Origin: Membranipora membranacea
Taxonomy: Eukaryota; Bryozoa; Gymnolaemata; Cheilostomatida; Membraniporidae
DNA: 64,000 bases
Direction: 5' to 3'
Assembly (NCBI GenBank): GCA_914767715.1
Contig: OU612069.1
Coordinates: forward strand, 21,695,387-21,759,386
Position numbers and translations under genes: made by a program. The first letter of the stretch is position 1, and the number at the start of each line of letters is the position of its first letter. Positions 42,901-63,900 of this stretch are shown here, in pieces. The notes below the pieces were generated by a model, which had not been told where the DNA came from, ran no database searches, and saw only the letters and a program-made list of their open reading frames with translations.

Positions 42901-45900
42901 CCGTGATAGAGATTTCTCATTGCAGTTTCAACAAATCTTTGGTTCGGAGTAATGGTCTTGTCATCTGCCTTGTTCCTGAGCTGTTGACTTTGCCAATTTA
43001 TGCACTGTATTTCTCCCATTAGAAATCTTGAACAGGATCAGCTCGTGACACCCTAGGTTGAGATGGGTATCAATTGATAGACAAATTAGTTTCTGCTTTT
43101 TTATTGGCCTTTTGATCAGTTTGCAATATAAAATATTGATGGCATTCAGCAGCTTCAAAATAGATACCTTGATTTTAAAAACACAAGGCATTGCCTAGAA
43201 GATGGAAGCACCAATCTGTTTCTGTGACCGTCTAGGGCCTAGGCCTACACTATCTGTTGGTGATTGAGAATTTTCTGTATCTATCTGCAAACTGAATTAA
43301 GATCTTCACAAACATATGACTCATGTGCTATTGTTCAAATCTTGAACTTGGTCGATTCTTGGAAAACCATACTCATCCTGTTCCTGCTCTATCTATTCGA
43401 ATCTCATGAGCAAGCGGTTCAGGTAATGCCTTATAGGGATATAGTCATGACATTCTTTCAATAAGACCCCCTCTAAAGAAATCACAGCTGCTTAGATAGG
43501 AGGACTTCCGCGGGTGTAGCCATTGAAATAGTTTTTCCTATCACCAGTTCTGTACCACTCTGAAATGGCTACATGGAAAGTTAGCTTTCGCATTATTGTC
43601 TTATCTACTTCAAACAATCAAGAGAAAAGTTTTGTCCATGTTGCTGTTTTATCAGCTTCAATTTATTTAATTATTTATTACGTAATTTCATACTATTTTT
43701 GAGATTAGAGTGATAATTTACAAAGTGCAATGTCTAGAGCATAGGTGGGCAACCTTTTTTTGAAAAAGGCCACATTTTACACAGACTCAGCTCAAAAGGC
43801 CTCAACAAATATTTCAAACATAAATTTGGAATGTGAGGTATATTTTGGCTCTGCATATTTTGTACAGACTCAATCAGAATATGTGTTAATAAAATCTGCA
43901 GTATGTTGCGAAAAAAATTGACTCGCATGAGCTCAAACAAAATACTAATATTTATCTATTCCTCTGAAGTTTTGTGACATTAAAGGGCAACCAAGGTTTC
44001 GCAGCAATGCATTGATAGGAAGTAAATAATGTGCTAGGCAGCATCAGCTTTGTGCAGTACGCGATGCAAAACTCAAAGTAGTTGCTGACTCTATGCTGGG
44101 TAACACTTCAGTTTAAGGGAGGTTCCAAGACATCGCTGTAATGATGTAAGAGCACAGGCTAAATAATTACAGGAACAGGAAACTGCTCTGTGGTATTCTA
44201 TTTTAGCGGAGTTTGAGTACCTGATGGATGAAAGAATCCTGGCTGAATAATTATCCGAATTCGATTTTTTCTTTTTCCCTGTGCAGAAGGTGCAATCTGC
44301 TATTAATCAATGAAAAGTTGTTTGAAACCTTGGTTGCCCTTTAAGCTACAATTATAATCTTTCATGTGTTTGAGCAAAGAACAAGGGGAAAATTTTAACT
44401 AGGCTTGTCGAATGAAGGAACTCTGTAACATTTCAGATAAAATTCCGGAGCACTTGTAACATGACAACTTTTTGTTACAAAGCTGACTGCATAAGCTAAA
44501 ACTAAATAATTAAATCTTTATCTAATCGTCTGAAGTTTCGTGACATTAAGCTAAATTTACAATTAATCTTAGTTACAAGTGGTTGAGCAAAGGGCAAGGG
44601 AAAATTTTTCATATATGCCTGTCTAACATTCTTGAGCACTTGTAAGACGACGTGTTACGAAAGGACATTTTTGTTTTCACTGTTTTGGGTTTAGTTTTTG
44701 CAAATTGAAGCTCTTATTAAATGTAGTCTACACTAGTACTGTTATGATGTTTTGTAAAGTATGGCTTGGGAATTCCCTTGATACGTTAACATGTATGTAG
44801 CCTAACTACATGCATGATGCAGAATGGCAAATATTATGAAACTCAAGCTAAGGATTGTGCTTACAGAGGGGTATGCATTAGTCTCGTCACCCACTTTTTT
44901 CTTCTTTTTTTCCAAAAGTGGCGTTATGACAAAGTCTGCTATACATGCTTTGACATCCACATCAGGAAAACAAATGAATGAGTAATCCTTTTTTAGACAA
45001 AAGGCCGCAATAAGGCTGCAAAAGATTACTCATTAGGCCACACCGGCAAAAAGGCCGCAGGTTGCCCACAGCTGGTCTAGAGTATGGCTACAGGTGAACT
45101 TTTTAGATAAACATTTTTTCTCCAGCTTTTGTGTTGCATGACATTAAAATTTGAACATAGGTCCAAATAGCATTTGCAAAGGAAATACTACACTATATTC
45201 ACAGTTGAGCACAAAATAAAACTGATTTCGCTCTTTTAATCCATACTTAATCGTGTCCACAAAGTTTGTCAGCTTTAAAGATATCAAAGTAATCTTAGCG
45301 CATTTAGTAAGTCTGCGCTGCCTTTACGTTGACCAGGGTAATCGTAATGGATTTGAAAATTGGCTCAACAAGCAACCCTTGGCATACTCATTTTATGGAA
45401 GGAATGTCGTCTATCAAAACACTAAGAAATTTCCTTTCTTGATTCACATATAGGTGTGAAGTCAATTGTTGTTGCTCTGATATCAGGCAAGGCAGAAGTA
45501 CAATATGACGCTGATTCTTTAGATCAACATCAGATTGTGCAGAAGATAAAAGACATTGGATTCGGAGCATCTATAATGCCAGAGAAAGCAGGTGAAGGTC
45601 AAATCCATCTCAGCGTGAGTATAAGTCGACTTATCTTGCCAGGGTTGTATTTCAGAAAACTTTAAGACTTGATTTAAACTCTCTCTCAGAGTCATCAATT
45701 TAGCCCTAGAAGCAAGGGCATTGCCTACTTCATATTGTTGCATGTGCCTGCCTCATGCTGCTGAAGCAATATCTATCACTGCATTTCACCCTCACTCTAT
45801 GTCAGCGTTTCACTGTATAGCTGCCATATTATGTTACCAGCGCTGATGAATATTCATGGATTAGAAAGTAGAAAGGAGCATACAAACTTCAAAACACGGT

Positions 45901-48900
45901 GGGGAATTGAATATCAACATTATATATTGTGCTATGGATAATTGTTGAGTATTTTTCAGGTTATTTGAATCATTTTTTTCACTTCCTAGCGCTGTTTGTT
46001 GTTACCTCAGAATCCATTAATGCTGTCATAAAAGGGATGCTAATCACTATCTAGCAGATATAGTGACATACCAATTTGTGATGTACCTTAATGTTTGATT
46101 TAGCCAAAGATTGAACTTGTTGAGAGGTATTGACACAGTTGGATTGAGTGCTATATTTTTCCTCTTGCTGACATGGCCTTAATCCATCAAATTGCACAGC
46201 CTTCCCATGATGCAGCGATTTGGATTTCCAAGATAAATAAAGTCAAACTTTTTTTACATACCATGCACCATGTAATTCTTTAATTTTCATTTTGTTAGGA
46301 GTTGTTTCCTCAAAGTAAAATAGAATGACTCATAACACGTTTTCTACATCCCACTTATGAAATAAAATGGTATGGTAGAAAGTTCATCCATTCTCCCTGG
46401 TTGAACATTAATGAACCTTGATTACAAACAGATGCACATGAACAACCATCTGAGAGCCCTGAGCGTGTTTATTGAGTTAATTTTAGTTTGATCAATGGAA
46501 ACAAAAACCTGTGTTCCTAGACAATACTGTGTGCCATGAGAATGTTTTGTCTTATATAATTATAATATATATCTATGATATAGGCGCTGGCTGACCTTGT
46601 TAGATTTATTTATCAATATGGATAATAAGTAGGCTATGGCTACAGCAGATCTTCTCAGCTCTTTATTATTTTATTCATTGACCCTCCTCCATACCACTGA
46701 ATAGATAGTATAGGCAGCCCACTGTATGTATAGGTAGAATAGATAGATACTGCTTAACTTGCTGGCTAGATAGGCAGAAGCAGGTTGAATTTTTAGAGGT
46801 AGGATAATAGTCTTTGGATACCCAGGCATAGTTGAGCTGCAATTTTTTTAAATTGATTTCATAACTAAACAAGCAAATCACGATATCTCAAAAAATTTCA
46901 TCTGCTGGTCCCTTACCCTGTCTTGTCAAGCTTTGTCGGAGGGGTTCCCCTCTCCTTCCAGCAATGCTTGTCATGAAAGGCCACTGTTTGCAATGGCCTT
47001 GCAGGATGTGGCACTTTGAAGACTTCTCTTTCAGAGAGTATACAATAACAAATTCAATAAAATTTAAGAGGTTAACGGTTCCCATAATGCATATCTGGAT
47101 ATAGAATTACCAAAGTATATTGAGGCCAATTATAATGTGACTTGAATTTTTTAGGGAAACCCATTTATTATATAACCATGGGCATTCACAATAAGCCGCT
47201 GGGTCACAAAGCGATATTAAATTCTGTAAATTTTCAACTGCACTATCATTGACCCACTGTCAAGGTCTCTTGTCCATAACCCATGATTTGAGTTTACAAA
47301 CTGCATATTTATTTGTTTAAAGAGGTTTTCTAGAAAGTTTACAGATAACAGAGTAGTTAAAAAGTAACTTGTTGACCTCTACACACAGTTAAATACACAA
47401 AAAAAAGGAGGTTATACATAAATAAATGACGATGTTCTAGAAATGGGAAAGTAAGTAAGTTATATATGGCTTTATAGAAATAGAAAATGATATATATATA
47501 TAAAATTATTGATCTTGTGACAATTATTATAAAAAGTATTAGTTAAAAGACAGTAGGCTGTCAGCCGTTTTGCATTTCAGTCTGAAATTGTGCAGCAGAT
47601 TTAAGAAAGCTGTTTTGCCAAAATGTGTCCTAAAAGAGGGTTTTATTACTGAACATTTACTTCTAAGGGAGCGTTGGTGTTGCACCAGGCGAAGAATATG
47701 CTTTGATGCTTTATTTTTGAATAATTTTTTATGTGTAAATTTGTGAAATAGGTAATGTCTTCTACTTTTTAAGGTGGGTAAGTTTAACAGTGATCTACCA
47801 GTTGTGACAGAAAACTTTTTAGGTGCAGATATTATGATTCTAATTGCTTTAATATAATTCTAGTGATGAAAATACAATTGCCGTTACGCAATGCAAGGTG
47901 TAATATCGCATCCTACTGTATGCTAATGGTTCCTATGGAACCCTGTTGAGGTTTTATTATCAAACCATAAAACCATAAAGTTGAATCTTGGGAATGATGT
48001 AAAAATTCCTTATTCAGTAGATAAAGGGTTAGTCATAAAGAGATAAAGGGATTCATGCATAAATGATTTAACATTTATGGCATTTCAAGTAGTGTAAAAG
48101 CCTCTTAACAACTTTTAGCATAGCCTATATCAAACATGACAGTATATTTCAAGCTTGACATGTATGCAGATATTTGCCTTACTTGTGCTAAATCTTGATT
48201 AGCACCCATTTATGTCAGCATTAATGGATTCTGAGGTAACAATAAACGACCCTAGAGAGTGAAAAAATGATTCAAATAACCTGAAAAATACACAACAATT
48301 ATGCATGGCACAATATATAATGTTGATATTCAATTCCCCACCGTGTTTTGAAGTTTGTATGCTCTTTTCTACTTCTCGCAACATATCATCATCACCAATT
48401 TGCATCAAATGAGAAGAAAACTTCGTATTTTTGTTGAGTTGCGACATTTGCGACGTTAGTGGGTTCCAGCTATTTCGACGTTTAAAAAATTGCGACGTTT
48501 GTGGGTTTGCGACGTTTTAAAAACCCTTCGTTGCGACGTTTTTTGGATTGCGACGTTAGTGGAACGCTAGATTGCGACGTTTTGACGTTTGCGACGTTTG
48601 GGGGTTCAACAGGGGCAAAGCTTGTGTATGCCAAGTGGTCACTTTGAAAATTTGATACTCTACAACGCTATATAGGTTGATTTTAAGATGTGGAAATTGT
48701 TTATCAATGCAGGGACCTCCAGTTGACACCAGGCCTAGGACTAATAAACATTCTACTGTGGATATTGGCTACGCCCGTACAGGTAGGATAAAAACTAACT
48801 GCTTCCTTTAATCTTCAATCATTCATCATTTCAGTAAATCTTCAGTTAGAACCTCAAACTAACCAAGTGAGTTAACATGTCATCTACTTTTAAACTCGTG

Positions 48901-51900
48901 TGGGTTTCACTTCAAAATCTAAGGTTTCAGGGAAGTTATGCACTCAAATCACAGGGTCCTATCCGCTTGGCGCCTCCGGTTATTTGATTGCAGAATATGC
49001 CCAAAGTTGACTTACTCAGATGACAGGATTGTGACGTCATAGCTACATTTCTACTGCTATGATTCCTTCCGGATAGCTGTGTTATGTATGATGCATGCAT
49101 TGTGTGAGAAAATTGTCAGGTAGATGATTATTTTGTTATTTAAAACAAACACCACACGGTTGTTTCAGGAAGTCCGCCCATAATATCAATTGAGCAGTAA
49201 AAATCGAACTCAGTCAATCCCCATTTACGCCGATGGCATTTGTCCTCTTCTCTCATTTGTAGTTCTATGGGGCGCGATATTTTTACATTCAAGCTTACAA
49301 AGCAGTGAAGCATGGCTCCGCCAACATGGATGTTCTGGTTGTCTTATCAACCACTATTTCATATACCTACTCTGTTGGAGTACTTGTAGCTGCAATCATT
49401 ATGCAAACAGAGGAAAGTCCTAAAGTATTATTTGAGACCACACCGATGCTAATAACTTTCATCAGTCTTGGGAGATGGCTTGAGCATATTGCAAAGGGTG
49501 AGTACTCGTCCTGATCATACAAGTACGTACTAGTTGCGCAAAACATTTAAGCAGTTTATAGTTTTACATCATTATGTATTCTATGGTTCTCACATCTATT
49601 CTGATTTAGGGTGACATTCATCCTTGCATTATAATGCAGTGAAAATTCATGTAATAGACAGTCTATCATAAATTTAAAGACTTTATTCCAATACCATTAT
49701 TGCCAGGAAAGACCACAGAAGCAATTCACAAGTTGCTGTCCCTTCGAGCAACAGAACACTGCGTTTCATACCCAAGAATTGTCTGACAATTCTGTACAAT
49801 TCTAGAATTGTCAGAAACTGACCTATATATCATTACCCAACCAGCAACCATTATTGTGTAATTAACCCTGCCTGCTAAATAAATTACTTTCATTATTGAT
49901 ATTGTATAGCCATAGTATAAGCCTTTACAGTTCTAGTCAATATCATACAATTGGATATGCTGTAATGAATAGATATTGCTGTGCAAGGTAGCATCAAAAT
50001 CTATATTGCGGGAGGCCGAGGTTCAGATCAGAACTTTGCTACTAATAAAAATGTACAACATCGCTCCCCAGATGAGCGAGGAATTATTTTGTATCAACTG
50101 TCCTATATGCCTAAGTGGAGAGAAGTGATATGTGAATGAGGCCATATTATCCACAGAACCACTGACTACTGAAAATATGCTGACTGATGCTAAAAAAACT
50201 CAAACTTGGTGTCACATCAAGTAGTATGAGTACTGATTATTGGCATAGTCTAAACTACGCTCCTTGTGATTATTGAGAGTGAATGGCTTTCAGCTATTTC
50301 TATTTGTTGGCCAAAGATGCTCTGAGCATGGAGTTAGCTCTGAATGTTATCGTATGTGGACTGAGGGAGGCAAAGGTAAATCAACTATCGTAAGCCTGGT
50401 ATATATTCATTACCTGTCTACAAAGGAGCTCTTGATGTTATACTATATCATTCTCAGCCATCTCAGTTATACGGTGTACAGGAAGCAATTTTGGCATATT
50501 TCTCTCTCACTCTTGGATGGTAGTTCCCTAGTAGGTGTTGGCACTAGTACAGATAGTATTAAAATGTTAGACTAATGGCAACACCGTTTAATGTAATAAA
50601 TTTTAATCTGTCAGCTTGAGTGCCACAAGCAGGGAGATTGGCCAATAACAGGCATAATTACATAATTACCTTGATATCCTGGTTGTCAAAATTTTTAATT
50701 GTACAATTAAGTATAATTAACACTGTTTGTTAATCCTTCATACACATTCCATTGCACTTGTAACAAGTCATCATGACACACTTGTGGAATCAGAGAGACA
50801 GGAGTCATTGTAAGCTGACCTAACTTCCTGTCTTTTGCTGCTGATAATGAATGCGATGAGTTTTAAATTTCACGAATATTCATTTTTAAAATGATGGTTG
50901 TTTGGGTGTAATTGCAATCATGATCATTATTTGTCAGAAGAGTGAGGGGCGGGAAGTTGTAACATTTTATGCAAAACACTAGATAATTGTCCAAATTCCA
51001 TTTGTATATTTTTATCAATTTATTTCACCAAACTCTGCTTCAAAGCTCATCATTGTACAGAGTTATTATGTCAAGAATGAGATTGCCTCGCAAAAAAACC
51101 TTAAATTCTCAGGCGCCCTTATTCTCTAGTATTTGCAAAAAGGTTTCATTGATTTTCCGCGCTTCTTGGTCAACTTCAAGAGTTGAGCCAGCATTATATG
51201 ATAATCTGTGTCTTTACCCACAGGGTTGTCCATTTTGAAATCTACTGGTACCAGGGGCGTATATTCTAAAAAATTTCACTCACTGACTTTTCAGAGATGA
51301 GCATAATAATCGGGCGCAGCCGGATCCACACGCCGTAGGCGTGGCGGAGAGGGTGTGGGAGGGGCGCTTAAGGAAATTTTTGCATATCGGTAGCAAAATA
51401 GTGCAAGCAGAGAGGTTTTTCAATAGCTCACTGAGCTGTTGGGTACTTTCAGATAACAACTCAATAGCAGTAGAAGATTACGGTAAAAATGCTCCAGTTA
51501 TAAAGCACCCATTTGAAAAAAAAACTGACACAATCAACAATCTTATCAACAGTGATTATTAGGCGGACGCTCTACACACTGAGCTATTCAGCCACTCACG
51601 GAAATCCGTGGGCCGTGAGTGCTAATATACGCCACTGACTGGTACTGTATAAGTTCTGTGAAGGTTGCCTATGAATGCCAGTGTAAACAAAATGAACATT
51701 CTGACTGGCTTATCTTGATTATGACTTCATGGGTAAATAACTTGGATACCAACAATACATCCAATTATGCTTGGCTAAGATGTTGATGTCAATTGAAAGG
51801 TAAACAATTGGCAAATGACACTGAGAATCTTGTTCAAATTCAATAAGCTAATCTCATTGAAAATGATCAGGCAGATTAAACAATGCATTGTAGCCATTAA

Positions 51901-54900
51901 TTGAATTTTATGGTATATGGGTAGAGAGAAGCAAGAGTAAATCTAAAAGGCCTATCATTCAATGACACAATAGAACTCGTTTGTACAGAATGTCTGGTGG
52001 TCACTGTAAATTCTAAATTTATCAATGCAGCTGATAATAATAATCTGATAGCTTTGAAAGATTATCTGTTGAAAGGCTGTCCAGGCAATAATTTATATGT
52101 TTAAAATTTAACAGCTGTAATGGCCCTGCAAGCCCCTGATCTGAATTGTTGAAATGATTGAATTTCAGGTTGATAGAACCTTTAACATACCAAACTCTTT
52201 GATGCATGCAATTAATGGCTACAGTGTACAGTTTGATCTGTCTGATCAATTTCAATGAGATTAGCTTATTATTGAATTTGAACAAGATTCTCACAGTGTC
52301 ATCTGCCAATTGTTTACCTTTCAATTAACATCAACATCTTAGCCAAGCATAATTGGATGTATTGTTGGTATCCAAGTTATTTACCCATGAAGTCATAATC
52401 AAGATAAGCCAGTAAGAATGTTAATTTTGTTTACACTGGCATTCATAGGCAACCTTCACAGAACTTATGAGGTACCAGTAGATTTAAAAATGGACAACCC
52501 TGTGGATAAACACACAGATTATCATATAATGCTGGCTCAACTCTTGAAGTTGACCAAGAAGCGCGGAATATCAATGAACCTTTTTTGCAAATACTGGAGA
52601 ATAAGGGCGCCAGAGAATTTAAGGTTTTTTGCGAGGCAATCTCATTCTTGGCATAATAACTCTGTACAATGATGAGCTTTGAAGCAGAGTTTGGTGAAAT
52701 AATTTGATAAAAATATACAAATGGAATTTGGACAGTTATCTAGTATTTTGCATAAAATGTTACAACTTCCCGCCCCCTCACCCTTCCGTCAAAGAATGAT
52801 CATGATTGCACTTACACCCAAACAACCATCATTATAAAAATGAATATTCGCGAAATTAAAAATTCACGGCATTCATTATCAGCGGTAAAAGACAGGAAGT
52901 TAGGTCAGCTTACAATGACTCCTGTCTCTCTGATTCCACAAGTGTGTCATGATGACTTGTTACAAGTGCAATGGAATGTGTGTGAAGGATTAACAAACAT
53001 TGTTAATTATACTTAATTGGACAATTAAAAATTTTGACAACCAGGATATCAAGGTAGTTATGTAATTATGCCTGTTATTGGCCAATCTCCCTGCTTGTGG
53101 CACTCAAGCTGACAGATTAAAATTTATTACATTAAACGGTGTTGCCACTAGTCTAACATTTTAATACTATCTGTACTAGTGCCAACACCTACTAGGGGAC
53201 TACCATCCAAGAGTGAGAGAGAACTATGCCAGAATTGCTTCCTGTACACCATATAACTGAGATGGCTGAGAATGACATAGTATAACATCAAGAGCTCCTT
53301 TGTAGACAGGTAATGAATATATACCAGGCTTACAATAGTTGATTTACCTTTGGCTCCCTCAGCCCACATACCATAACATTCAAAGCTAACTCCATGCTCA
53401 GAGCATCTTTGGCCAACAAATAGAAATAGCTGAAAGCCATTCACTCTCAATATTCACAAGGAGCGTAGTTTAGACTATGCCAATAATCAGTACTCATACT
53501 ACTTGCTGTGACACCAAGTTTGAGTTTTTTTAGCATTTAGCAGTTGATACAAAGTAATTCCTCGCTCATCTGGGGAGCGATGTTGTACATTTTTATTAGT
53601 AGCAAAGTTTTCTGATAATTCAGCTAGCATAGTTTAGCTGATGTATTCTATTTATGCAGTTGCTCCCAATATTAACAGATTGCACAAAATATAACGTAGG
53701 GTATGGTACAACACAGAAGAGTTGAACATAAGTATTTTGTCGCGTCATCATATTCATTACTAAGAGTTTTCCGTGCTTACGAGAATTGTGAGCCAACAAT
53801 TCGAATGGAATGCTTTCATTTTCCATCACGATGATACGAAAAGAAAAGATTTGCCCCGGCGGGGAGTTGTACCTGGGCCTCCCGCAATATAGATTTCGAT
53901 GCTACCTTGCACAGCAATATCTATTCATTACAGCATATCCAATTGTATGATATTGACTAGAACTGTAAAGGCTTATACTATGGCTATACAATATCAATAA
54001 TGAAGGTAATTTGTTTAGCAGGCAGGGTTAATTACACAATAATGGTTGCTGGTTGGTTAATGATATATAGGTCAGTTTATGACAATTCTAGAATTGTACA
54101 GAATTGTCAGACAATTCTTGGGTATGAAACGCAGTGAGAAGCAACATGGGTTGAGCTCGATGCAGCAGGCAATATCTGCAGAGAAACTAAGATTGATGTG
54201 AACCAAGTACAGCGTGGGGATCTATTGAGAGTCAGACCTGGTGAGTCTTGTGCTTATTCTATGACATGCCTTCATGGCTTCTTTTCATCATGTGACTTGT
54301 ACAGTATAGTATTTAACTGGAGAGCCTACTTGAGTAGAGGGGGCAATCCTTTAGCTTTAGATTGTGTAGCAAGATTTTTATGACATTCATATTCACAGCA
54401 GTACCTACTAAAATGATCTACCAATGGCATGATCTCGTCTGTTGAGAGCTCTAAGGGGATATAACCCTTGCAAAATAGAACGGGAGATCTGAGAGCCCCA
54501 TTCGTTAACTTCTCTAGAAATAAAAAGACAGTTTTAAAATTATTTATTGATACACAAGAACTTGGTGATACCATTTTGGCCAACTTGATCATGTTAACAG
54601 GAGAGAAAGTACCAGTAGATGGTCGAGTCCAGTCAGGCTCCTCGCACTGCGATGAGTCGCTGATCACAGGAGAATCAATGCCAGTGAATAAGAATGAAGG
54701 AGATGATGTTATAGGTGGAAGCATAAACAAAAATGGATCGCTCATAGTCAAAACAATGCATGTTGGAGCTGACAGTGCACTTAATCAGATTGTAAGGCTA
54801 GTTGAAGAGGCTCAGAATAGTAAGGTAGGCTTCAGCTCGGTTGATAAAAATAACAAACTGCAAACAATTGTTGTTCTTGTTATTGATATGAGTGCAGGAG

Positions 54901-57900
54901 TCCAAAAAGTAATTATAGTCCCACCACAATCAAGTCTTACCCTTCAGCTGAAAAAACAGTTTAGATTGGTTCTTTAAATAAAATTAAAACAATCCAAAGC
55001 AATAATATAATAACTATGTACGGCTGTAGGTTCAAACTATTTCTTCTTCATCGTCACCTACAAAATCTTATTATTGTGTGTCATAGGTGCCAATACAGCA
55101 GCTAGCAGACACAATAGCCGGATACTTTGTCCCAGGAGTATGTATCATATCTATCACCACTCTGGTCATATGGGTCATTGTTGGATATGTCAGCCCACAA
55201 ACTATCATTCCGGGATATAACGAGGTAATTTTCCATCATATATCAATATATTTTTCACCGTTTTGAAAATAACTACGAATGAAATCGGAATCAACTGTAG
55301 TTTGAGAGATTGCGACCAGTTTCCTTTAGAAATACTTGGGCAGAGATTAGTGATTATTAATTCAGTCAATTTCACAAAAAGCATCAAAATAAAATGGCAA
55401 AAATTGGTTCCAAACACTCCATTGCCTCTCATAGTGGTGGATCTAGAGAGTGAATGGCGTCACTATTTCATTCTGTGAGGCTTCGCTGAACCTAACTAGC
55501 ACTGGACATTTGTATCTTCAGTATTCGGTGATCAGTATTAATTAATAATACCTTATTGAAGTTTGACATTTCCAAAGCTTTTTGCACGATGTAAATTTCA
55601 TTTAAAACAACAAAACATACCTTCTTTTTTCTTTCTTATAATGTAACATAGGGGAAAAAAATATGGGGCGCTTCACGCATTTGTAACCGAAAGTGACGAT
55701 CAACGCCACTGTATATGTTGATTGGCAGACAGGGTACTTGCCATAGTATTAGATGTTGTTAAATCTGGTGCAGAATTGACGGACAAATGAACACCATCAC
55801 CAGGAAATTGTTAGCATTTCCACAATGGACGACATAGGTTAGTGATAGGGAGGTGGGAGGGAAATTGACAGACTTATTTTCTTTCAAGGCCGGCGTGCTG
55901 ACCGGATGTAGATTGAAAGAAAGAATATGTGAGTAGCTGTGAACAGTAGTTCTAAGAAAGCCTATTATTGGCTGAGAACAATAGTTCTAAGAAAGCCTAT
56001 CATTGGCTGAGAACAGTAGTTCTAAGTTTTCCTTACCAATAAGTTGCCCTTAGTTGGTTGAGGGAGGGCAACTTTTTATTCAGTTGACCTGGATTATTTG
56101 TCATGTCTTGGGACTGATTGCCAAGACAAGGGAAAGTGTTATAAGGGCAGAAAAAAATCTTTTTTGTACCAAAAACTTTATTTTTTCTTTCTTATAATGT
56201 AACATAGGGGAAAAAATATGGGGCGCTTCGCGCATTTGTAACCGAAAGTGACGATCAACGCCACTCAGTTATTTAAAGTCAAAAATGCTCAGTTGTAGTT
56301 ATCTCCTCCTTACTTTTCCAAAAGCTATCTCCTTCCTACAGGTTTTAATTCAGAATAACCACATTTGGTCACCTGGATCGTTAGTCAATCAGCTAACTAT
56401 TCATTTATTTTTTTCTGCAAAAAACTCCAAATCTGACAAAAAATCTCCAAGTTCATGTTTTTCTGCTTGGGCAGAACTACACTTCGACATGGTAACTCAC
56501 AGACATCTGGTTTTTTTTGGAGCATCAGTTCATCACATTATCTAAATGAGTTTTTGAGGGCATGTTTGAAATATTTTTTTATCATATTTAAAATTGCGGT
56601 TTACTTTTTCATTACAGTGTTTATTTCATCCACCAGTGCAGTGGCAATGTTGCGCAAGGCAGTGCAAAGAGCCTATATAATTGTAGTTTCTATGCCATTG
56701 TGTACAGTTTCAAACAAATTTTAATTGCCTTTTATCAAAGAAGTGGAGCAATTTACAAATGACAATGGAGATGCTATACTGAACTTAAACAAAAGAATAT
56801 TTCTGTTGATTGATATAAGTTTTCAGTATAGATTGTGGTGACCCATCAGACACCCATCAAATTCTATCAGAATGACTATATACCTCAAAATAATTAATCT
56901 TCATCATTCTATATACATATTCAGAAATTTCCAAAATCTATATCCGATTCATACTCTGTTTGTCTTGTAGTATAGTATTGCACTTTTAGCCAGTCAGATC
57001 TGCACTTTTAACTCGATAGAATTTTTGATTTATATACGCTGCGTTAGATATCTTGTAATTCCTGCTCAGACCAAATATGTTTTCCAACCAGTATTCCAAG
57101 CCCGAAACCCCAGTTCTGATACAAAAATTGGCCCATATTGAGTGTATCCCGTTTTTTTATACCAATTATATTGCACCTAAGATACCATATCATTATTATG
57201 TTGAATCAATAGGCTCTAGTGGCTGGCTGCTCATAAATTTACATTTTTGAAAACGACCATGATACCTTGTCGACATTCAATGATCCACACTCTCTTTACT
57301 CAACAAAAGCATGGTCCATGCTTCTAAAAAAGTGATACAAGGTTGCGATCACTTCACTCTTGGCTAGCCGGGTAAACCTTCTTCCGGGAGTTATCGCACA
57401 ATCAAGTAGACGGTGCTCGGGGGAGAGGTGTTTATGCTATACCATCCTCACTTTGTATGTTTCTATATTCCGAAACATGGTTTGGATTTGGCTTTTTCAG
57501 TGGATACTGTTCAATGATAGCATTTTCAAAATAGACCCAAATGTTTGAGCTTAAATGTTACACGAATGTCATCCCAATATTTTTATTATTGAAAAACACT
57601 AATGTAATTATGCTGGATGCGTATAGGATTATGATAACTGTGTGTCTGGAGGGCTAACCCCTAATAAACTTATAATAAACACATAATATTCTTTGTGAAA
57701 TATTCTGCTGCATTTTCAGTGAGCTGGTATCTGTGTGGTCTACCTTGGTGTTCAATCTGTACATTTTTTCAAAATCATGCCCTGGGACTGTATCTATACT
57801 GCCACAAGTTATAATGTTGTTACTTTTGAGGATTCGGTTAGCCAAACAGGTGGGCTGCCTCAATAAACAACAAATCTGAGATGGCCTCCAAACAAAATTG

Positions 57901-60900
57901 GAAGCAGTTCGAGCTGGATGAAGATATCAGTTAGAGCAATTACAGACATTGTTTTCTCAGAGTAAATTTTCTAATCCTTCAAGAAAATCTCATTTGTAAA
58001 CAACCTGTTGTATTGCAGTCTCTGTCTTTCATTACAGGGAAAGAGTTTGTTACCTTTGTGCCTTTCCAAAGGATTTAAAGGCAATGTAATATTAGAATAT
58101 CAAAACCTGAGGATAACCTTTGTGTCTCAAGACTTGTTGCTTCTTATGATATTTATGTATTAAGGCATTATTAGATCTGATTAAAATTGAAGGTTGATTT
58201 AAATCAGACGTCTTGTCACAAGCCACATCCCGGAGCATAGGCGGCAAGATTTGTTGCCTTAGTGGCCGGGCCGCAATATCTGCGCCAGCTTGCTCTCTGT
58301 TTGCTGGTAGGTCGGCGCACACCTGGGTGCCAACCAAAGCCCAGTGCTAGATAATTCTTAATTCCTGCTCAGACCAAATATATTTTCCTACCAGTATTCC
58401 AAGCCCGAAACCCAGTTCTGATACAAAAATTGGCCCATATTGAGTGTGCCCGGTTTTTTTATACCAAATTATATTGCATATAAAATATCATATCATATTA
58501 TGTTGAATCAATAGACTCTAGTGGCTGGCTACTCATATATTTACATTTTTGCAATCGACCATGACACCTCGTCGACATTCAATTATCCACACTCTCTTTA
58601 CTTAACAAAACCATGGTCCATGCTTCTAAAAAGTTATACAAGGTTGCAGTCACTCCACTCTTGGCTAGCCGGGTAAACCTTCTACCGGGAGTTATTACAC
58701 AATCAAGTAGAAGATGCCCTGGGACTGCATCTATACTGCAACGAGTTATGATGTTGCTACTTTTGAGGATTCGGTTAGCCAAACAGGTGGCCTGCCTCAA
58801 TAAATAACAAATCTGAGATGGCCTCCAAACAAAATTGGAAGCAATTCTTCACGCAGTGCATTGAAACGATCCAAGTACAATTGAGACCTAAGCTGGATGA
58901 AGATATCAGTAAGAGCAATTACAGGCATTGTTTTCTCAGAGTAAATTTTCTAATCCCTCAAGAAAATCTTATTTGTAAACAACCAGTTGTATTGCAGTCT
59001 CTGTCTTTCATTACAGGGAAAGAATTTGTTACTTTTGTGCCTTTCCAAAGGATTTAAAGGCAATGTAATATTAGAATATCAAAACCTGAGGATAACCTTT
59101 GTGTCTCAAGACTTGTTGCTTCTTATGATATTTATGTATTATTGCATTATTACATCTGATTAAAATTGAAAGTTGATTTAAATCAGATGTCTTGTCACAA
59201 GCCACATCCCGGAGCATGGGCGGCGAAATTCGTTGCCTTGTGGCCAGGGCACAATATCTGCGCCAGGTTGCTCTCTGTTTGCAGGCAGGTCGGAGCACAC
59301 CTGGCTGTCAACCAAAGCCCAGTCGACAATGGATCGCAGATACATTTGATATGAGGTCCTTTCGATTAATGTAAGGTTCAATGATTGCATAGACCAAGGG
59401 TATATTGTGGCAGCATTGTTCAAGGATTGTAAAAGTTAATCCTATTATAATAACTGCCACAATGCTGCCTTCCTAGCTATACCCACCTTACCAATTTAGC
59501 TAGGATAGTTACAGGTGTAATTTAAGCATAAAACATCAAGTCTAATCGTGGAGTAAGGCTGTACAAAAAGAAACTTTTACATGAGAGCCTGCATATTCTA
59601 TTATTTACTGTAATCAAAAACTTTGAATTCAGGTCATTCTCCAGAACCCTATAATTGTGACAAATAGATGAAAGGAGTGTTTTGCATCAAGCTTCACATA
59701 ACTTTCCCCTTGACACAAAGCTTGCAGGTACCTTGACCAAGGAGTAAAAAACTCTCTCCTTGACTATTGTTAAAAAATTTACTCTGTATCCCTTCACTCT
59801 GTGAAGCAGTCTAGCCACATGCTTGAAACTAAAATGTTTTACACAGATAGATAGATGGGTGATAACTCTATACTGCAAATGAGCCACCAAATTTCAACAA
59901 TAAGAGAGGACAACTTCTTTGCCCAAGATTTGCCAAAATTGACTTTAATGAACTGAGCACCGTATATGTTGTTTGGCAGACAGGGTACTTGCCATAGTAT
60001 TAGATGTTGTTAAATCTGGTGCAGAATTGACGAACAAATGAACACCAAACCAATTGTATTGAGCGAGGCACACCTCGGAAGCTCAGAACAATTGTTTCGC
60101 CAAAACTGCACCTTAGTTTATCAAGATATATTTCTTGAAGGCATCGGATGACCACCTGCCAAAAAGATCTTATTCTTGAGTCAGACCAGCCCTGAATGCT
60201 AGCCCAGGTAGCGCCACCTCGTCTCAGTGAGTGAGGAGTGACCCAACCCTCTATTTTTGAATCCTTTAGGACATCACTGAACTCTTTTCTGAACTCTGCT
60301 GTTGTGACTTCAAACAAAGGGCTGCTTCTGGAGGGTCTCAAGTGTTTTAAATACCTCTTAACGAGGCGAAATGGGCATGTCTTTCCCCCTACTGCTTTAA
60401 TCATAATGCTTTCTGCCTCTGCAGAATTTTTGAAAGAATTAATGTGCACTTCCATGGCACCCTTGCTAAAACACACATCGCCAACAGACATATGATGCCC
60501 TGCTGAGGATATACAATACTCGCTAGGGCGTAAGAATCCATAAAAAGCACAAGATACCATGGCAGAAAAGCGCCTCCCATCTATACTCCACCAGACCTGC
60601 TCTGCCTTAGTGATCAGAGTGTGTAGTTGGTTGTTTTCTTTTGAGTTCTACCCTGTGAGGTTTTTATACCCCTCAATATTAACCTTAGTTTATGAGTAGC
60701 AAAGGTAACCTCACTGTTCTTTCTTACACATGTGACAGGATTGCACTGTGTTTCTTTCCTTCTTGTGCCAGGTTTGTGACCCACAACTCCATTGACGAAG
60801 TAGAGAATTTTTTGAGCTTGTGCTCAGAGCAGAACATTTTGTATTGGTTGTAAAATTGATCGTAAGACTTCTTTGAGCCCTCGGACAAAGACTTGTCTAA

Positions 60901-63900
60901 GAAGCCCCTCGCCTTAGCTCTAAGACCTGAAATAAATAGTGCAGGGAATCTTTTATGTATCATGAGTACGTACCTATATTTCTAAAATAAACATTGCACA
61001 ATAATAATTAGTGTCATGTGTTTGCTTTGACCTTCTCACCCCCACGCTTCACGTCCTGAGGATCAAAGGTCAATTTTGTGCTTATGATCAGAAATGAAAA
61101 ATAGATATTATTATTTGTCACCTTACAACCAGTATATATTTTTTACCCTACTTGGACACAGGTGTACCGGTAAGCTAGTTGGACAGGCAGCCATGGTGGG
61201 AAAACAGAGTTTAAATTCTCTGATTTTATTTCTGGACAACAAATCTGCAGCAATGTTCTCTAATCCTGGGATATGTCTGGCCACTAGGAGAATATTTTGT
61301 TGCATGCATAGGAGCGCCAAAAGACGTAGTAGCTTTCTCACAACAGCATCTTTACAATACAGATGTTCTAGAATAGAGACTAGGGGCCCCATTATCTGTC
61401 CTGACCTCAACCACTGAATTTGCAAATTTTTCCTGCTGCATGTGCACTGCTACGAATATGGGGAACAGCTCTAGAACTGTGATGTTTAAGTTTGTCCAAA
61501 GTTCATCTGGCCACATCCCATGGAACCAGGTGTTTCCCCAAAAACCTCCATATCCTATTGATCCTGAAGCATCAGTGACCAGAGTGAAGTCTACAGCCCC
61601 TGCCACAAGATATTGGAACTGTTTACCGGGTGCTAAATAAGACAGAAAATCTCTCTGCACTTGTAATTCAATATGCATTCAATTTGAATTCAACTACAAG
61701 GGGAGATAACTCCTAGTATGTAGTACTAAGTTAACAGGGGGGTGACACTACCTCAATTGGTAACATAACTCTATTTATTTTTTTTTTTTTTCAGACGTTC
61801 AGCACAGCTAATGAGGTAACAATAATAACCATTTGTTAATACTGAATTACACAAATAGCAGCCTATCTGATAAAGTATGATTGGGTACAAATGAGTATAC
61901 CTAACTCTATTGATCTCTGGCCGCAGGTTCTGTTGTTTGTGATTGGCAAAGTTAAATGTCTCCAAGGATATCCAATACGGCTGAGTTACTGTATGATCTT
62001 CATCTGCACTAACCATTTTGAAACATCAAATGGCAATTTTGGAAGTCTATTCTTGACAACCTCTCAGTCTCTTTTTCATTCTGAGTCCCTCTGCCAGCTA
62101 TCACTCACCCACTTTCAATTGTGGAGACAACTAGCATGTTTATACTGTATTCATCTCTCTCAAATTTGTTGATGGCCTAATCAAACTGCCAACATATTTT
62201 ACAGAGCACTACCTCAGGTAGCATGCACACTGGGAAAGTATTTGCTAATGCATTCCAGTTTGCTATCACAGTACTAGCTATAGCATGTCCATGTGCTCTG
62301 GGATTAGCCACGCCCACAGCCGTAATGGTCGGGACTGGTGTAGGGGCTACTAATGGTATACTCATCAAAGGAGGAGAACCCTTAGAAACTACGCATAAGG
62401 TAAGTGTGTTGGATAATTACAAGCACATGCTAAAAGGTAAAGGAAATAACAGAATTTTTACAGAGTAAAATAATGAACGGCGTTGCATCATACATATGCT
62501 ATAGTACGGGCTAGCCAATGTTTCGGCTCCAAATTTTTGTTTAGTTTTATCGAATCATAGAGCCAATCATAATTAACGATGACATGAGATTTAATGAAGA
62601 AATCAAAATTCATTTAACTTTTTCATTAGGTCAAAACTGTTGTATTTGACAAAACGGGTACAATAACACATGGAGTGCCGGAGGTCACCAAGGTCTTGTA
62701 CCTTGTCAAGGAGAATTTTCTACCGCGTGTTAAGATCCTCGCTGTAATCGGAGCAGCTGAGGCCAGCAGCGAACATCCTCTGGCCACCGCCATTGTCAAT
62801 TACGTCAAACAAGTAGGTGCATCAGTGATGACTCTCCAATTCGAAGTGTGCACAGCTTCATGGCCTGACTAGGTGTCGCCACTCCAGACCACATACTCAA
62901 GACCTTCAAAATTTGCAGTTTCAACTCAAATGAAATTTTTGTGGTCAGCAAAGATAAGTTATATTTCTTGGTTGAGAACTTCTTTGGGGTAATGACAATG
63001 ACTGGTCTGACAATTATTTGTTTGTGGCAAGCAGCTTATGTTTTGGTTAAGGAGTTGAATACGAGCAGCCTTGGCAAGGTGATTGACTTCTCAGTTGTTC
63101 CGGGATATGGTATAAAGTGTATAGTAAGAGGTATACATATGACGGTACGTTCTTTCAACAATGGCTGTGCATCCTCCAATCAGAGTCCAGGGAGAGATGT
63201 CAATGAAGAAGGTGAAGTGAACGGGAACTTTGGTATCAAGTTGATGAAATTAGGTAAGACTGAATTGGATGTACTGCACCAAAACTATCCTCCTACAATT
63301 TCCTAAACACTGACATTTATCAATTGTAAAAAGGTTACTTTTATCAAGATGAAGTATTTAAACTTGCTTTTGGTTCCTCGGAGTGACATTCCATGAAAAG
63401 TTTGAATGTAATGACCAGCATCCCTGGTTACAATCACTCTAATTATTTGGCATCGGGAATTATACTTGTTGCAACAAATTCTTGATCATAGGCTTGGCGC
63501 TTAATAATTAGAGTTTGTTAAAACCATGGTGTCATATCAAGCGCATAGCATGGGGTGCGAAATAATTGTTAAGTGAGGCTGCATGTGATTGTGCCAAATT
63601 GTATTCTGTTAGTAGGCAGGTCACAACACGCCATTGAATCAACGAACTGTGCTTCATACCCTATTCAAGCATAGTATTAGATGTGTAAGGACAGTCATGC
63701 CAAGCCAAGCTCCTTGGTCAAGCTTACTAGCAGATTGTTCTCAGTTTACAATCGATTTGTTTTAGACCACATAGATGGAGATGAAGAGTTTAGTTTTCTT
63801 GCCGGTAACCGAGAATTAATGAGGAAGTACGGTCTGGATATAAGCTGTGAGATCGATCAGGAAATGTCGAATTATGAGCAAGAGGGACATACAGCTATGC

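Follow-up and report, generated by a model that had tools for sequence, protein, structure and literature searches.

A foldback transposon inside a coding exon of one of two convergent ATP7 copies in the bryozoan Membranipora membranacea

A foldback transposon of 4,380 bp lies inside a coding exon of a gene for an ATP7 copper pump in the bryozoan Membranipora membranacea. We found it in a window of 64,000 nucleotides (C5:21,695,387-21,759,386) taken from a genome of 339 Mb in 18 contigs, a single assembly that represents one haplotype. The insertion has very probably disabled one member of an old convergent pair of ATP7 copies, with the neighbouring copy carrying the ATP7 role. The element and the exon that it interrupts are laid out as follows, with coordinates that carry no contig name being positions in the window:

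49,757-54,136, no strand assigned: foldback DNA transposon, apparently non-autonomous, 4,380 bp, with ends CACTGCGTTT...AAACGCAGTG; recognized from its sequence, its inverted repeats and ends common to other genomic copies
49,753-49,756, plus strand: left copy of the AGAA target duplication, also part of the exon sequence
54,137-54,140, plus strand: right AGAA of the target duplication; the corresponding point of the paralogue holds AGAA just once
49,757-51,251, plus strand: left arm as far as a nested insert, matching the right arm and other copies
51,252-51,637, no strand assigned: nested insert of 386 bp, flanked by the 8-bp duplication ACTGGTAC at 51,244-51,251 and 51,638-51,645
52,206-54,136, minus strand: right arm, inverted; the stretch 53,610-53,867 is without a left-arm partner
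49,707-49,756, plus strand: 5' part of the interrupted ATP7 exon
54,141-54,240, plus strand: 3' part of the interrupted ATP7 exon, with a GTGAGT donor after it

A first-pass annotation of the window had described a near-palindrome of about 4.4 kb inside an ATP7 coding exon, a flanking 4-bp AGAA duplication, a 150-nt in-phase exon upon removal of the element and one AGAA, and an early stop brought by the inserted DNA, and each of these points was borne out. The element is mostly made of inverted arms, as a foldback element should be, with eight inverted-repeat pairs of 88-100% complementarity (763 nt at 96%, 269 nt at 97%, 189 nt at 96%, 160 nt at 95%, 159 nt at 96%, 69 nt at 99%, 65 nt at 88%, and 25 nt at 100%). 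Removing the element and one AGAA leaves an open exon of 150 nt; rejoined and combined with the neighbouring exons, it aligns without a gap at the joint to the solved ATP7-type pumps 7si3 (E 1.1e-129) and 7xuk (E 1.3e-125), gaps farther along in these alignments being exon parts omitted from the query. As assembled, the window gene lacks a continuous open exon through the actuator domain. Reading through into the element adds nine foreign codons (HCVSYPRIV) before a TGA stop at 49,784-49,786, so a read-through protein would end ahead of the phosphorylation site and lack this site and all later parts.

The gene could still work if the element were spliced from the RNA as an intron, an outcome that the first-pass annotation had allowed for, or if the interrupted exon were skipped. 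When donors in the first 150 bp of the element were paired with acceptors in its last 150 bp, six pairs kept the frame free of stops, and the best donor among them scored -1.5 bits versus 6.9-10.2 bits for real donors (8 of 13, those scored in register); the element was rejected as an intron on these grounds. Skipping would keep the frame, since 150 nt is a multiple of three, but the protein would lose 50 residues from a region that matches the solved pumps along its full length and whose exon protein is identical at 38 of 49 positions in the paralogue. We consider it very improbable that RNA processing rescues the gene in either way.

The window element belongs to a family dispersed through the genome. 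We counted 147 exact instances of its 27-nt end (80 forward, 67 reverse), compared with 0 for the reversed control, and the first 17 nt of this end, allowing at most one mismatch, occur 341 times (180 + 161; control 1). A query with the 430-bp left-end arm returned 592 first-look candidates, and the 40 that were scored, which include the window itself and in some cases the two arms of one element, were each 97-100% identical. All 30 loci cut at the match have the element's end in common and unrelated flanks; in 15 of them the element begins at CACTGCG, and in 15 it ends at the complement of this sequence. Both ends were found in 19 of 20 longer stretches examined, and one end in the remaining stretch, L050, whose opposite end is 14.4 kb off. 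Seven of the 19 complete copies measure 4.00-4.08 kb, with arms of ~1.75 kb around a spacer of ~300 bp; the rest range from 1.6 to 6.2 kb. The target duplication is exactly 3 bp in 18 of the 19, the other copy (L035) having 2 bp and an altered right end. Dispersed copies with defined ends and target duplications are what is expected of a foldback family. Long palindromes are prone to misassembly, and the insertion might on that account be an artefact of assembling a palindromic region; its exact ends, its target duplication, and the copies on several other contigs that share its ends and structure make this scarcely credible.

Open reading frames longer than 112 amino acids were found in two of 21 stretches (the window copy, the 19 complete copies, and L050), where they lie in internal inserts: L040 carries frames of 457 and 173 amino acids and L048 one of 409 amino acids. 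The longest frame of each was rejected as a transposase candidate because it is retroelement-like, with a reverse transcriptase match in L048 (E 6.5e-17) and a zf-RVT match in L040 that falls below the cut-off (E 4.6e-5). A Pfam scan of five open reading frames in the window element gave no match over the cut-off, the best (Ku, E 0.079) being at chance level. Pairs of the 17-nt end also occur at spacings of ~4.80-4.82 kb (four on C5) and ~2.67-2.68 kb (three), and these look like further subfamilies. The four pairs, spaced by 4,801-4,815 bp, lie at C5:4668119-4672919, 5753932-5758741, 6289513-6294327, and 7312282-7317091. In one 4.8-kb pair (L058), 781 bases from the middle match the window-element family in pieces at 79-95% and contain no open reading frame longer than 61 amino acids; judged from this portion, the copy looks non-autonomous.

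The nested insert of the window element is not present in the 18 other complete copies aligned across its site (the alignment of L035 stops short of it). Its ends (CAGGGGCGTATATT/AATATACGCCACTG) and 8-bp duplication are those of an insert that we take to be hAT-like, and its minus strand has a stretch that resembles, by eye, the 5' half of a tRNA.

The ends and duplication size of the family resemble those of CACTA/EnSpm (CMC) elements, whose target duplications are 2-4 bp and mostly 3 bp: the termini are of the form CAC...GTG (CACTG...CAGTG), and the duplications are short (3 bp as a rule, 2 bp in L035, and 4 bp in the window copy). The 3-bp duplications include ACT, AGG, TTG, CAA, CGC, and AAG and follow no TWA rule. 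PIF/Harbinger elements duplicate a 3-bp TWA, and this assignment was rejected. Chapaev, within CMC, has 5'-CAC...GTG-3' ends and 3-4 bp duplications, and Chapaev3 a TWA target duplication, according to excerpts of PMC4079192. Chapaev, suggested by the 4-bp duplication of the window copy alone, was set aside because the other copies show 3 bp, and Chapaev3 because the duplications are not TWA. As far as those excerpts extend, the family is like CMC in its CAC...GTG ends and 3-4 bp duplications and unlike it in that no transposase was found in the family copies, that the arms reach ~1.75 kb, and that the TWA rule of Chapaev3 does not apply. The CACTA-type transposase PF02992 has three genome matches over the cut-off (C6:16908205, C2:9555812, and C8:20793368) and none in 14 control genomes.

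In structure, the family recalls known foldback elements. FB elements have long inverted arms around a short non-coding middle and exist as copies without transposase, and Galileo reportedly shares these features. Tetris is described in the same terms, as long inverted arms, a short non-coding middle, and transposase-less copies, in excerpts of PMC4079207. Within the reach of these descriptions, the window-element family is like all three in its arms, its middle, and its copies without transposase, and unlike them in its 3-bp duplication (4 bp in the window copy) and CACTG ends. Titles and abstract openings from the Chapaev, foldback, CACTA, and exon-insertion literature contained no earlier description of this foldback family. 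A foldback family of high identity with CACTA-like ends helps to ask how foldback structure arises outside the Mutator superfamily.

When the genome was searched with a 358-residue catalytic query, 12 matches emerged from 13 scored candidates and fell at two loci, the window gene and C5:21,786,272-21,789,833 on the opposite strand. The two genes form a convergent pair with tails ~20 kb apart, measured from the last exon found. In the neighbour, the matching exon is 150 nt long and open, is spliced at the same positions, carries AGAA once where the window gene has its insertion, and is identical at 105 of 150 nt; this intact paralogous site lies ~44 kb from the insertion. The first-pass annotation had spoken of an essential gene and had proposed a search for a second intact ATP7 locus; with this locus found, the premise of a lone essential gene falls, and of the options that it listed a decayed paralogue fits best, given the convergent second locus with its intact exon and the two exons that the window copy is without. 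Since the other ATP7 copy is whole at the insertion point, the case looks like ordinary loss of a gene copy rather than a new kind of system. Neither the loss nor the foldback family overturns existing knowledge; the interest lies in an apparent recent loss of one of two old convergent copies in which the disabling insertion is visible and the intact site is so close. A C-terminal query also found weaker matches, spread over six further contigs and with a best E of 4.2e-14 at 45% identity, which we took as other P-type ATPases.

Over six exons and 355 codons, the window gene and its neighbour differ by a synonymous divergence (dS) of 1.53 and a nonsynonymous divergence (dN) of 0.126, a dN/dS of 0.083, with dS incomputable for three of the exons individually because of saturation. 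This ratio indicates constraint on both copies through most of their history, and it suggests that the loss of the window copy is recent relative to an old duplication. The insertion is young relative to the gene duplication: an alignment of 17 copies, which excludes L035, L040, L048, L050, and the window copy's own nested insert, has 3,122 ungapped columns, and 14 changes (0.45%) are private to the window copy. Its nearest relative among the 16 compared copies, L043, is 98.8% identical. The CPC exon (window 62,250-62,400) is identical to its paralogue at 136 of 144 nt, compared with 69-77% for the other five exons; this points to gene conversion, and the exon is likely a conversion tract.

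A shortened product ending ahead of the catalytic core, for example a metal-binding protein, might still be used, and the N-terminal metal-binding exons of the window gene are indeed open. Such a product would be without the catalytic exons, and it is on these that we measured constraint; we think its use unlikely.

The window gene has a second defect, upstream of the insertion. Further exons of this gene, and the stretch where two are missing, are:

45,453-45,617, plus strand: exon encoding the second half of a metal-binding domain, the final one seen ahead of the missing exons
45,618-48,712, plus strand: stretch expected to encode the last metal-binding domain and first transmembrane helix, with no exon found for either
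48,713-48,782, plus strand: ATP7 exon (TPVQ)
49,263-49,497, plus strand: ATP7 exon preceding the interrupted one, ending in LEHIAK
54,601-54,824, plus strand: ATP7 exon after the interrupted one, EKVPVDGR...EEAQNSK
55,087-55,224, plus strand: ATP7 exon
62,205-62,399, plus strand: ATP7 exon with the CPC motif; start inferred from an AG, aligned part 62,238-62,411
62,630-62,812, plus strand: ATP7 exon with the DKTGT phosphorylation motif

Segments from 80 relatives, running from the last metal-binding domain to TPVQ, gave only weak matches between the flanking exons at 45,453-45,617 and 48,713-48,782 (best E 0.14), and a profile search of 45,401-49,400 brought these same two flanking exons, and no others, above threshold. 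Searched against the whole genome, the segment of one relative (P0002) found the last-metal-binding-domain exon (E 1.9e-15) and the first-transmembrane-helix exon (E 8.9e-10), both at the neighbour (C5:21791565-21791729 and 21791022-21791201); at the window locus it matched other metal-binding exons alone, and weakly. The best control is, in our judgement, a blastn comparison of the neighbour's exons with the window, in which five exons each match their window counterpart (E 1e-13 to 9e-65), and the first-transmembrane exon has no counterpart, its best E being 1.3, or 0.42 by tblastn at a different place in the window. With no first-transmembrane-helix exon found there, the window locus as assembled falls short of the full transmembrane-exon set of a functional ATP7. 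The catalytic exons align to solved ATP7-type pumps and are in this like ATP7A and ATP7B; unlike those pumps, the window copy is interrupted, and neither a last-metal-binding-domain exon nor a first-transmembrane-helix exon appears in it. A second inverted-repeat pair lies in the stretch of exon loss (45,866-46,036 and 48,205-48,374; 113 nt at 96% and 63 nt at 87%), and it may or may not be the cause of that loss.

Together, the stop brought by the insertion and the lost exons make the window gene, as assembled, look like a recently disabled duplicate. In the sequence of events that we favour, a non-autonomous CACTA/EnSpm (CMC)-like foldback element, moved by a transposase supplied from elsewhere, would have landed in a coding exon of one ATP7 copy of the old convergent pair; the same copy would also have lost the exons for its last metal-binding domain and first transmembrane helix, and the neighbour would have kept the ATP7 role.

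Several observations weigh against this account. C-terminal exons are present in both copies (up to C5:21,761,461 in the window gene and from C5:21,781,961 in the neighbour), and the catalytic exons compared contain no stop and no frameshift. With the dN/dS of 0.083, these open catalytic frames imply constraint on the window gene until recently, and on another haplotype it may still be functional. A rate comparison does speak for the account: among 152 near-invariant columns, for which 116 of 120 relatives were used, the window copy departs at 9 and the neighbour at 5, with a mean of 22.1 (16-31) versus 13.8 (8-19) unique departures over 116 relatives. Its weight is reduced in that the neighbour's sequence served as the reference for aligning the relatives, a choice that may favour the neighbour, and that the comparison includes no formal rate test. 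The P0002 search missed the window's own TPVQ exon too, so weak or short exons can escape it, and the missing exons could instead be an assembly loss. The 4-bp AGAA duplication departs from the 3 bp of the family and can be read in two ways, as a rare 4-bp event or as GAA (3 bp) with one base added, the empty site being the same in both cases. Finally, no autonomous partner was found among the copies, the 17-nt-end pairs, and the PF02992 matches: among the exact ends listed, which reach two of the three matches, there is no 17-nt end nearer than ~197 kb to the C2 match and no 27-nt end near the C6 match. A link between the PF02992 transposase matches and the foldback family is not supported so far.

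The strongest competing explanation is that the insertion is segregating, with the element on the assembled haplotype and a working ATP7 copy as the other allele. The youth of the element and the openness of the remaining exons are what a heterozygous insertion would lead one to expect, and we regard it as a real possibility, though one that falls short of an even chance; the missing exons for the last metal-binding domain and first transmembrane helix would be a second defect in the gene unless they, too, are specific to this haplotype.

Two features of the window gene's introns complete the description. A minus-strand open reading frame of 215 amino acids (60,000-60,647) has a weak tyrosine-recombinase match (PF00589, E 2.9e-4, 21.1 bits versus a cut-off of 27.1), and repeated stretches, recognized by eye, occupy 55,600-56,260 and 57,040-59,320.

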